Shown here in pieces: positions 38,006-42,515 of a stretch of 64,000 nucleotides of DNA. The notes under the pieces were generated by a model. That model was not told where the DNA came from and searched no databases. It saw only the letters and a program-made list of their open reading frames with translations. Each line of letters opens with the position of its first letter. The stretch's first letter is position 1. The position numbers were made by a program, and so were the translations under genes. Origin of the DNA: Rhodobacteraceae bacterium HLUCCA08 (GTDB lineage Bacteria; Pseudomonadota; Alphaproteobacteria; Rhodobacterales; Rhodobacteraceae); the NCBI GenBank assembly GCA_001314655.1, contig LJSF01000016.1:219131-283130 (forward strand), in the 5' to 3' direction.

Positions 38006-38967
38006 GCCTTCACCTGCTCGGCCAGCCCTAGAGCGCGGCCGAGGACAGGGGCAAGGCGCGTCAAGGCGGGGTGTTCGAGATGTTGCGCGATATGGCCAAG
38101 CACGCGCGGAACGAAGCGCAGGTAACCGGGTTTGTCATCACGCTGGGCCAGTCGTGAAAAGACCCCGAGGATGCGCAAGTCGCGCTGGACGCCCAGCACG
38201 GCGACGGCCGCCGTCAGATCGGCCAACGACGCTCCGGTCGCCGCTGCGAACCGCACCATCATCTGGTTGCGCAGGTCGTCGGGAACATCGCGACGCGCAT
38301 CATGCAACAGAGAGGCCAGGTCGTAGGCCGGATCGGACAGGACGGCGTCCTGGAAATCGATGATCCCGACCCGGTCCAGACCCAGCCGGTCCGGGCGCCA
38401 GATCAGATTCTGGGCGTGAAAGTCACGCAACGCCAGGGTGGCCGGAGCGGGAACGAGCGCCGCCAGCTGCGCCCTGAGGGTCGCGGTGACCTCCTGGGCG
38501 AGGTCGGGCGGCGTGTCGGGAGCAAACCAGTCCCATGCGATCGCGGTCATTTTGGCCGCGTGTTCGGGTGTCAGGGCCGTCAAGTCGGGTGGCGGAAGGC
38601 TATCTTTCAAGCGAATCAAGACATCGACCGCGCTGGAATAGAGCCGCATTTCGTCCTGCGGCGCGTGAATGAGACGGGCTGCGAAATCCTCGGTCCCGAG
38701 GTCTTCGACCAGCAGCAGACCCGCGGCTTCGTCCCGGTCCAGGATCTCGGGCGCCGCGAGCCCCAGGCCACGCAGGTGCGTGTCGATACGGATGAAATCG
38801 GCCAGGCTATCGGACAAGGCGGGTGGAGTGATCATCAGGATCGCAGTGCCGTCCGGCCCGGTCAGCCGTTCAAAGCACCGGGCCGAAGCATCGCCCCGGA
38901 TCGGATCGCGCTGCCAGCCGGCGCAGGGGCCGTGCGCCAGGAAACGGGCAATCGGATCAGGCGGCAT
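38002..38967 (-). CDS. amgK: AmgK-type MurNAc/GlcNAc anomeric kinase
   Basis: A 321-residue aminoglycoside-phosphotransferase-fold kinase. The catalytic Brenner motif reads LRDFHAQNLIW and the metal-binding aspartate lies in IIDFQDAVLSDPAYDLASLL. AmgK phosphorylates MurNAc at C1, feeding MurU; the pair bypasses de novo UDP-MurNAc synthesis, which makes cells less sensitive to fosfomycin. The 11-base overlap with tsaE and the 4-base overlap with murU indicate one transcript. Confidence 0.82.
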   Translation of the reverse strand: MPPDPIARFLAHGPCAGWQRDPIRGDASARCFERLTGPDGTAILMITPPALSDSLADFIRIDTHLRGLGLAAPEILDRDEAAGLLLVEDLGTEDFAARLIHAPQDEMRLYSSAVDVLIRLKDSLPPPDLTALTPEHAAKMTAIAWDWFAPDTPPDLAQEVTATLRAQLAALVPAPATLALRDFHAQNLIWRPDRLGLDRVGIIDFQDAVLSDPAYDLASLLHDARRDVPDDLRNQMMVRFAAATGASLADLTAAVAVLGVQRDLRILGVFSRLAQRDDKPGYLRFVPRVLGHIAQHLEHPALTRLAPVLGRALGLAEQVKA

Positions 38968-39427
38968 TCAACACATTCTCCAAGCGGTCGGCCCAGAGGC
39001 CCGGGCCGTCGAAGCTCAGCGCATGACTGAAATCTTCCGCGACCAGGCGCAAGTTCAGCGCGTTTCGGGGCAGATCGGGGCCCATCCGGTCGGGCCATTC
39101 GACCAGGCAGATCGCGGTGTCGAAAGCCTCGGCCAGGCCGAGTTCGATGACCTCGTCCGAGCCGCTCAGGCGATAAAGGTCGGCGTGCCAGACCTCGCCT
39201 TTCGACGTGGCATAGGTCTGGACCAGCGTGAAGGTGGGTGAAGGGACCTCTTCCGAAGGGCTGGTCAGCGCCCGGATGAAAGCCCGTGCAAGGGTCGATT
39301 TGCCGGCGCCGATATCGCCCCAGAGCAGAAAGGTGTCACCGGGTCGCGCCAGACCGGCAAGACGCCGGGCAAGGCCTTCGGTGGCGATGTCGCCGGTCAG
39401 TCGGATCGGGCCCGCGGAAAACGTCAT
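38957..39427 (-). CDS. tsaE: tRNA threonylcarbamoyladenosine biosynthesis ATPase TsaE
   Basis: A 156-residue P-loop ATPase that drives the TsaBDE complex making t6A at tRNA position 37. Walker A is GDIGAGKST at residues 37-45, followed by VPSPTFTLVQTY, both diagnostic. It heads the run tsaE-amgK-murU-addB-addA and follows the divL-like gene by 53 bases; tsaD is elsewhere in the window. Confidence 0.95.
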   Translation of the reverse strand: MTFSAGPIRLTGDIATEGLARRLAGLARPGDTFLLWGDIGAGKSTLARAFIRALTSPSEEVPSPTFTLVQTYATSKGEVWHADLYRLSGSDEVIELGLAEAFDTAICLVEWPDRMGPDLPRNALNLRLVAEDFSHALSFDGPGLWADRLENVLNAA

Positions 39428-39480: not shown

Positions 39481-41058
39481 TCAGCCGGCGGCACCGGTGC
39501 TGCGAGAGGGTTCCGACAATGGCAGTTCGACGCCTTGTGGTTGGAATCCGATCAGCAAGGCGCCGGCCGGCAAGGGCACGGCCCGGACTCTGGCCCTGCG
39601 CCCGTCGGAAAGGTGCACGAGGCCGACGAAGGTGTCGCGCCGGGCCCCGGGTACCGCAACCCGGCGCAGATCGGCCCAGATCGCGGACGGCGCCGCCGCA
39701 TCCGACCAGGCGCCAAGCTCGTCCTCGAACCGCCGCTGATTGAGGGTTTCGTCGTCGTCCTTCTGCCAGAGGTCGCGATAGGCGCGGTTGGTGTGCAGCA
39801 GGCGACGATCCTCTGAAAAGATCGCGATCGCATCCTCGACCTCGTCGAGCGCGCCATGGGCGATTTCGATCTGCGAGCGGAACCGCCGGGTCAGGGACAT
39901 CTCGGCGCTTATGTCGTCGAACAGAAAGGCGATCGCTCCGTCGGGATGCGGCCGACCCGTGACGCGGTAGGTGCGGCCGTTCGATAGCGGCCAGGTTTCA
40001 CTATAGGTGCCATCCTCGGCCGCGGATTCCAGGGCGGCGAACCGGTCCCGCCAGCTTTGGTAATCGGGAGGCTCGGGGATCATCTGGCGCTGCCGCAACC
40101 GGTCCAGCACCGCCGTGAGCCCCGGTCGCGCGATCAGGAAATCGGCCGGAAGACCGGTCAGGGTCAGTAGCGCGGGGTTGAACATCACCAAGCTCCGGTC
40201 CCGGTCGAAGATTGCGATCCCGACGGTCAGCTGGGCAAAGGTCTTGGACAGGGTCTGGACGAACTGTCGCTGGGCGGTTTCGGCCCGGACCGCCGCATCC
40301 GCGTCCAATGCGAAATGCATTGTCCCGGTCCCGCGCTGGACGGTGGTGACCTCGAACCAGGCCGGATCGTCGCGGTCGGGCAGGTCAAGGGACTTGCGCG
40401 CCATGACGGGACCCGAGCCATTGACGCGAACCGGCACATCGAAAACCGGCTGCGGCGGCCACGACGGTGTCACCCCGTCGCCGGGTTCGCGTTGCGCCGA
40501 AAGCGACAGGAAGGCCCGGTTCGCCCATGTGATGACGCCGCTGGAATCCTGTTTCCAGACCGGGAACGGCGCTTCGTTTCCCAGCGCGCGGAGCGTTTCG
40601 AGTTCGTCTTCGATCGCTTCGAAGGTCAGCGCGTCGACAGCGGCACGGCCGGTTTCCGTCCCCTGCGCCTCCAGCGTGACGCGCGTATAACCGTCCCAGG
40701 TTTCAAGCATGATCCGCCCGGCCCGGTGGCCTTGGGCCTCGAGCGTGGCATTGCCGGTCAGACCGATGGTGTCGTATCGGGCGCGGAACTCCGGGAACCG
40801 GACCGAGACGAGGGCGACCAGCGCCTCCCAATCCGTCTGCCCGGGCTGGCGGTGGCGGACCAGGTCCTGGGCGGGTCGCGTTGCGTCGATCAGGTCTTCG
40901 CCGTCGAACAGGAAGGCGATCGTCCCCTCGACTTCCCGCATCAATTCGCGTCGCGACTGCCGCCGGCGGTCCGACAGGCGCAGCCAAAGCAGAACCGCGA
41001 TCGCCGCGAAGACAGCGCCCAGTGCGGCGGCGGCGAGATGCAGGGAAATCTGTGTCAC
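39481..41058 (-). CDS. divL: DivL-like PAS-domain protein without kinase domain
   Basis: About 525 residues. One N-terminal membrane segment (LHLAAAALGAVFAAIAVLLWL, residues 5-25) is followed by basic residues and several PAS-like units: around VWKQDSSGVITWANRAFLSL, IAIFDRDRSLVMFNPALL and IAIFSEDRRLLHTNRAYRDLW. A DISAEMSLTRRFRSQIE linker also occurs. It ends after the last PAS region, with no phosphoacceptor or ATPase domain. From memory, Rhodobacterales DivL, a regulator of the CckA-ChpT-CtrA phosphorelay, has such a PAS-rich form next to regB. A TTG at 41091 is an alternative start; the GTG at 41058 places the membrane segment at the N-terminus. Confidence 0.68.
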   Translation of the reverse strand: MTQISLHLAAAALGAVFAAIAVLLWLRLSDRRRQSRRELMREVEGTIAFLFDGEDLIDATRPAQDLVRHRQPGQTDWEALVALVSVRFPEFRARYDTIGLTGNATLEAQGHRAGRIMLETWDGYTRVTLEAQGTETGRAAVDALTFEAIEDELETLRALGNEAPFPVWKQDSSGVITWANRAFLSLSAQREPGDGVTPSWPPQPVFDVPVRVNGSGPVMARKSLDLPDRDDPAWFEVTTVQRGTGTMHFALDADAAVRAETAQRQFVQTLSKTFAQLTVGIAIFDRDRSLVMFNPALLTLTGLPADFLIARPGLTAVLDRLRQRQMIPEPPDYQSWRDRFAALESAAEDGTYSETWPLSNGRTYRVTGRPHPDGAIAFLFDDISAEMSLTRRFRSQIEIAHGALDEVEDAIAIFSEDRRLLHTNRAYRDLWQKDDDETLNQRRFEDELGAWSDAAAPSAIWADLRRVAVPGARRDTFVGLVHLSDGRRARVRAVPLPAGALLIGFQPQGVELPLSEPSRSTGAAG

Positions 41059-41107
41059 AGGGTCGTCCGTTCCGGTCCTTGCCGACCGCAACCATCGCGC
41101 GAATTGG

Positions 41108-41122
41108 TTAAGGCGCGGTTAA
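41108..41122 (-). promoter_or_regulatory. Perfect CtrA box upstream of divL-like gene
   Basis: TTAA-N7-TTAA in the 71-base gap between regB and the divL-like gene. Read toward the downstream gene it is TTAACCGCGCCTTAACC, the full CtrA consensus with the extra C bases. It ends 50 bases before the chosen GTG start. Confidence 0.7.
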
Positions 41123-41129
41123 CCTACGT

Positions 41130-42515
41130 TTACGAGGTGATCGGACGGTTCTGACCCAGCGGTTCGGATCCGCCGGTCGATCCTGCCTCGATCGCGCTGC
41201 GGGGCCAGTCGGCCGTGACGATCGCGCCGCCTGGCTCGCCCGAGATCACCCGCGCCCCGCCGTTGAAGAAATTCAGACGGGCCCCGGAGCGCTCCAGAAG
41301 GGTCTTGGCGATGAAAAGGCCCAGCCCCATGCCTTCGTAGCCGGGACGCGTGGCGGTGTCGGCCCCGCTGCGCCGGCGCCGCACGAACGGATCGCCGATC
41401 CGGCCGATCAACGACGCGGGGAACCCGTCGCCATCGTCGCTGATCCGCAAGGAGATCGTGTCGCGGGTCCAGGACAATTCGACCTGGACCCTACTGTCGG
41501 CGAAATCGACGGCGTTCTGGATCAGGTTGCGCAGCCCGTGGACGATGTCCGGCCGGCGATGGATCACCGGTTGCCGCAGGCCTTCGGATCCGTCGGGCTG
41601 GACCAGGAAATCGACCGGCTTGCCGCGGGTCAGATGCGGTTCTGCCGCCTCCCGCACCACGGTTTCGAACGGCGCGCGCTGCAGGTGCAGATCCTCCTTT
41701 CCGGCTCGGCCCATGGACCGCAGGATATCGCGGCACCGGTCGGCTTGTTCGCGAATCAACGCGGCATCCTCGAGCAGCGACGGGTGATCGGCCAGGTCGT
41801 CCATCAGTTCGGACGACACCAGCTTGATCGTGGCCAGCGGGGTGCCCAGTTCATGCGCGGCGGCGGCGACCACGCCACCCAGGTCGGTCAGCTTCTGTTC
41901 GCGGGCCAGGGCCATCTGGGTGGCCACCAGGGCTTCGCCCATCGACAGGGTTTCGCGCGTGATCTGACGGGCATAGGCGGCGATGAAGGCGATGCCGATC
42001 ACCAACCCGATCCAGAAGCCGAAGGTAAAGATGTCGGGCAGCACCAGCGGCGCGCCGGTGGCGTCACGCATCGGCAGGTGCCAGGCCCGCAAGGCGGTCA
42101 CCAGAGCGATCGCAAGCACGCCCAGCGCCACGGTGCTGCGCATCTGAAGAACCGTCGCGGCGATCGTGACCGGCGCCAGGATCAGCAGCGCGAAGGGGTT
42201 GTTGAGCCCGCCGGTCAGGTAGAGCAGCACCGCCAGCTGAACCAGGTCGAAGATCAGCATCAGCACAGCCTCGCCTTCCCGCAGGCGGCGGGTTTCGGGC
42301 GACAGGACGGTGAAGAACAGGTTGCCGATGACGGCCGCGCCGATAACGGTTGCGACCAGACCGACCTCGATCTGCACGCCGAAGGCGTAGATCGCGATCA
42401 GCACCGCGGCTGTCTGTCCGATGATGGCGACCCAGCGCAGCAGGACCAGGGTCCGAAGCCGGACCCAATTGCTGCGCCGGTGTTCGGCCAGCATGTTCGT
42501 GTCGATCTGCGCCAA
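41130..42515 (-). CDS. regB: Redox-responsive sensor histidine kinase RegB/PrrB
   Basis: A 461-residue kinase of the RegBA system controlling photosynthesis, carbon and nitrogen fixation and respiration genes in relation to redox state. About six membrane segments come first, with the quinone-related GGLNNPF loop around residue 102-108. The phosphoacceptor is H221 in AAAHELGTPLATI, and the redox-active cysteine is C261 in QADRCRDIL, equivalent to R. capsulatus Cys265. The N box (LRNLIQNAVDFA) and G boxes (DDGDGFP, GMGLGLFIAKTLL) complete an active kinase. It is divergent from senC-regA. Confidence 0.96.
   Translation of the reverse strand: MAQIDTNMLAEHRRSNWVRLRTLVLLRWVAIIGQTAAVLIAIYAFGVQIEVGLVATVIGAAVIGNLFFTVLSPETRRLREGEAVLMLIFDLVQLAVLLYLTGGLNNPFALLILAPVTIAATVLQMRSTVALGVLAIALVTALRAWHLPMRDATGAPLVLPDIFTFGFWIGLVIGIAFIAAYARQITRETLSMGEALVATQMALAREQKLTDLGGVVAAAAHELGTPLATIKLVSSELMDDLADHPSLLEDAALIREQADRCRDILRSMGRAGKEDLHLQRAPFETVVREAAEPHLTRGKPVDFLVQPDGSEGLRQPVIHRRPDIVHGLRNLIQNAVDFADSRVQVELSWTRDTISLRISDDGDGFPASLIGRIGDPFVRRRRSGADTATRPGYEGMGLGLFIAKTLLERSGARLNFFNGGARVISGEPGGAIVTADWPRSAIEAGSTGGSEPLGQNRPITS

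Follow-up and report, generated by a model that had tools for sequence, protein, structure and literature searches.

A link between CtrA and divL in the Rhodobacterales is already known, from a prediction and from expression studies in two species. In 2010, Brilli et al. predicted that CtrA governs both cckA and divL in 'cluster B' Rhodobacterales, and they named the feedback (PMC2877005). In Dinoroseobacter shibae (Wang et al. 2014), CtrA sites were predicted at ctrA, cckA and divL, the last upstream of Dshi_3433, and the divL transcript was reduced in ctrA, cckA and chpT mutants (PMC4046655); chpT itself is reported not to be CtrA-regulated in this species (PMC7232146). Knockout of ctrA in Rhodobacter capsulatus significantly lowers the transcript of divL (rcc00042) (Fogg 2019, PMC6363796). 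The architecture of CtrA promoters has also been described: 5'-RACE in R. sphaeroides placed transcription start sites (TSSs) 23-24 nt past the box, and position -11 was an A in every case (PMC6180460). Where CtrA activates promoters in Caulobacter, its full motifs start near -35 (PMC4287350).

The locus considered here lies on the - strand of the window, by which we mean the whole stretch of 64,000 nucleotides that was analysed. The gene for the redox-sensing histidine kinase RegB/PrrB/ActS (regB) spans 41130-42515 and was assigned with NCBIfam NF045988 (721 bits, cut-off 570). It is followed by divL, a gene with a GTG start that encodes 525 aa (39481-41058), and then by tsaE (38957-39427; Pfam PF02367), which is possibly co-transcribed with divL and which, in most neighbouring loci, lies on the strand of divL, 32-133 nt past it. 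An alternative upstream TTG, at 41091, would fall within the predicted -10 element of divL. The divL product has PAS-type domains only (Pfam PAS_7 and PAS_4); Pfam gave no match to HisKA or HATPase_c, and a full-length Caulobacter-type DivL pseudokinase, with DHp and CA parts that bind DivK, was rejected on these grounds. A search of the Protein Data Bank with DivL gave no matches. When an alignment of 24 family members was used as query outside the family, the homologues found in other alphaproteobacterial families had open frames mostly of 560-1100 aa, and the alignments mostly stopped just before the kinase part. Eight of the long homologues carry HisKA and HATPase_c. The H-box of the long homologues reads [NH][VI]SY[QE]LR[TN]PL; here tyrosine replaces the catalytic histidine, the change that typifies DivL. 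The alignment of the window protein with these tyrosine-type proteins covers their PAS part and ends before their kinase part. Judged by its PAS domains and this homology, the gene is the DivL orthologue, in the short Rhodobacterales form described earlier (PMC2877005, PMC9430884). In a separate case, divL of Salibaculum griseiflavum (L195/L020) contains an in-frame TAG where its close relative S. halophilum has a glutamate codon, which reflects either a nonsense mutation or an error in sequencing; the CtrA box before this gene is intact.

The gap between the regB stop (ending at 41130) and the divL GTG (41058) is 71 bases long. Read directly from the window, its - strand carries TTAACCGCGCCTTAACC at 41122-41106. 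Within this, the CtrA box TTAACCGCGCCTTAA (41108-41122, - strand) is a perfect match to TTAA-N7-TTAA, and the flanking CC reaches 41106. Seven bases (41129-41123) separate the box from the regB stop codon, and 47 bases lie between TTAACCGCGCCTTAACC and the divL GTG. TTAA-N7-TTAA occurs nowhere else in the 64-kb window, and 100 dinucleotide shuffles of the window gave none. The whole genome (3.70 Mb) has 10 exact sites; at this motif density the gap should hold ∼0.00015 sites, and from base composition alone ∼0.00005. These results bear out the original prediction as to the locus: the box with its flanking CC, the 7 bases and the 71-base gap are as claimed, the neighbour is regB, the PAS gene is DivL-like by its domains and by homology to the long tyrosine-type proteins, and a chance occurrence in this gap is indeed improbable. 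In the genome as a whole, however, exact copies of the motif are no more frequent than those of a reversed control (10 versus 16). The motif alone is thus insufficient to identify a CtrA site, and the argument rests on its position and conservation; against chance, conservation among relatives is the stronger argument, compared with site density.

To assess conservation, we compared 90 divL loci of the same family (Rhodobacteraceae), almost every one from another genus. A perfect box precedes divL in 83 of them, six have a box with one mismatch and one has none, whereas coding control windows of equal length gave no perfect box in 1605 cases. Two of the perfect boxes (L014 and L037) were found by a wider scan, which left L104 as the sole locus without a box. 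A set of 80 named loci, which partly overlaps the first, gave 78 perfect boxes and two with one mismatch. The box consensus in relatives is TTAAC-N6-TTAACC[AT][AT]T; the spacer and the flanks beyond it vary freely. The original prediction was to fall if the box proved not to be conserved in relatives; this comparison has now been run, and the box is conserved. The exceptional locus, L104 in genome G024, has no box although divL adjoins regB and CtrA is present, and the box of its ctrA promoter is kept. This genome indicates that the link can be lost. Among 28 DivL homologues from other families, the weaker of which may not be true DivL, there were one perfect box and four with one mismatch, so the link is mostly limited to the Rhodobacteraceae lineage.

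The sequence behind the box has the features of a CtrA-activated promoter. When the relatives were aligned on the box, 71 of 83 showed an A and a T four bases apart, with the A at box offsets 26-29. The pair is found mostly at +27/+31 or +28/+32 (41 and 31 loci, compared with 0-8 at other scan offsets), that is, 12-13 nt past the box, and the divL of the window has A27 and T31. The A would fit position -11 and the T position -7 of a -10 element, which puts the start 23 nt past the box. In the window, the predicted -10 hexamer is GATGGT (41091-41096, - strand; A at -11, T at -7, the pair conserved in relatives), and the predicted start lies at about 41084 (41083-41085, - strand), as derived from the -10 position and the R. 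sphaeroides spacing. Relative to this predicted start, the box spans about -38 to -24 and is followed by a -10 element. A search of the regB-divL gap for a canonical sigma-70 promoter found none. The ctrA promoters of the window's genome and 30 relatives share the layout of divL (A27 0.90, T31 0.94).

Could an AT-rich octamer pair have arisen in this short gap by accident, without function? The absence of genome-wide enrichment would allow it. However, a box within one mismatch stands in 89 of 90 genomes while its 7-base spacer and its flanks vary freely, and a chance match has next to no likelihood in our view; on comparative grounds, the box should be functional. Its function might still concern the end of regB, for example if CtrA blocked or ended transcription of that gene rather than acting on divL, and the box does overlap the regB stop codon in some genomes. 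The spacing argues otherwise. From box end to divL start, the family loci average 51.4 nt with a standard deviation of 9.3, whereas the distance from regB stop to box varies widely (mean 25.5, s.d. 21.1 nt). regB lies upstream of divL in 86 of 90 loci, one of these at 859 nt, and in the five loci in which no regB was seen beside divL, regB is off the contig, or regB is distant (859 nt), the box is still before divL. Conversely, one genome with a CtrA match, G036 (L146), has no divL match; there, tsaE comes directly after regB, with no box between the two. In R. capsulatus, moreover, regB transcripts are unchanged on loss of CtrA-relay genes (PMC7232146). We consider a role at the regB end very unlikely; going by these comparisons, the box is anchored to divL, and regB is merely its neighbour.

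There is a similarly slim chance that the main binder is another regulator, for instance of the FNR type, with a half site like TTAAC, or that CtrA acts here as a repressor. FnrL is reported to bind beside divL in R. capsulatus, and its half site resembles that of CtrA (PMC7232146). Yet the single FNR-like pattern searched, TTG[AT][TC]-N4-[AG][AT]CAA, had no occurrence in 86 regB-divL gaps. The box also occupies an activating position, and divL expression falls, rather than rises, without CtrA in the two relatives.

The reading that remains, to which we assign a probability of about 0.93, is that the box is a CtrA-activated divL promoter through which CtrA would feed back on its own pathway. 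The box would be the activator-binding half of this promoter: phosphorylated CtrA would bind TTAA-N7-TTAA at about -38 to -24, taking the place of a -35 element, and would bring RNA polymerase to GATGGT, the -10 hexamer, so that transcription would begin near 41084, ∼26 nt before the GTG. As DivL feeds the CckA-ChpT-CtrA relay, CtrA would thereby adjust how much is made of a protein that regulates CtrA phosphorylation. For the organism of the window, we infer both that CtrA binds here and that it activates divL rather than repressing it. CtrA control of a DivL-like gene, the core of the original prediction, is supported by the conserved box, the activated-promoter layout and the presence of a CtrA gene in the genome. 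Feedback of CtrA on its own pathway gains support too, as a predicted site, and had already been proposed by Brilli et al. (2010). Published divL transcript levels in ctrA mutants of the two relatives (PMC4046655, PMC6363796) agree with the original prediction.

Other parts of the circuit are found in the same genome. CtrA is encoded there (C15; NF045991, 427 bits, cut-off 350), and its gene is preceded at -68 by a box with one mismatch. A gene for a CckA-type hybrid kinase, so assigned because its best NCBIfam matches are two CckA models, both below cut-off, starts directly behind a perfect box (C18). Upstream of the ChpT-type gene, a scan gave nothing better than four mismatches. It is very probable that CtrA likewise acts through cckA and ctrA. 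The ctrA promoters of relatives carry a box in 30 of 30 cases, with one mismatch in 29, and the spacing to the -10 element is as in divL. This box lies ∼65-86 nt upstream of ctrA (L109-L138); its left half is GTAA rather than TTAA in 29 of 30 relatives, and the conservation of the G suggests that selection may favour a weaker or asymmetric autoregulatory site. A perfect TTAA-N7-TTAA also lies 86 nt before a pheS-like ORF in the genome of the window (C39:195319, L009), where a CtrA site would not be expected. Across the family, a CtrA match (E 1e-60) is absent from 8 of 120 genomes. In seven of these, the search for divL gave no match; in the eighth, the sole match was weak and lay in a long protein. 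Most of the eight also have no RegB and may therefore be unusual or misplaced genomes, so this co-loss of CtrA and divL is weak evidence. Genomes without CtrA, with CtrA but no divL, or with divL but no box form a set of natural experiments on the reason for CtrA's control of regulators that act upstream of it.

The genes downstream of the box are tightly packed. From 41058 to 31005 on the - strand, the window holds divL, tsaE, phosphotransferase-like and nucleotidyltransferase-like genes, and two large ORFs resembling addB and addA, names that come from reading the sequence and not from a family search. The cluster from divL and tsaE to addB and addA is possibly one transcription unit behind the box. 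That a CtrA-driven divL transcript runs through tsaE to addAB is a speculative extension that we think is probably wrong; if true, it would mean that CtrA raises the recombination enzyme AddAB as well, for instance during DNA uptake. Strict dependence of tsaE to addB on the box is spoken against by G036, in which the box and divL are lost while tsaE to addB remain. tsaE is essential in other bacteria and, if it is so here, must have another promoter.

Among described systems, the locus is most readily compared with cluster B of Brilli et al. (2010), in which CtrA sites were predicted upstream of both cckA and divL, DivL lacks the kinase domain and DivK is absent (PMC2877005). Unlike the present survey, that study made its prediction from a smaller genome set. 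With D. shibae, the genome of the window shares boxes at ctrA, cckA and divL, and its lack of a box at chpT matches the reported absence of CtrA regulation of chpT there (PMC7232146); D. shibae is, however, another organism, and the regulation of its divL was deduced from mutants (PMC4046655). The R. capsulatus gene (rcc00042) likewise encodes a short PAS-type DivL; the study of it concerned how it contributes to the production of gene transfer agents (PMC6363796). The fla2 promoters of R. sphaeroides are built like that of divL, with the box ending 23-24 nt before the TSS and an A at -11, but they drive flagellar genes, and divL is not mentioned in that report (PMC6180460). A link proposed in 2010 from a modest set of genomes is thus kept in almost every genus sampled, with its promoter geometry fixed. 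To these systems, the present comparison adds breadth over genera, the apparent anchoring of the box to divL rather than regB, and a common -10 geometry.
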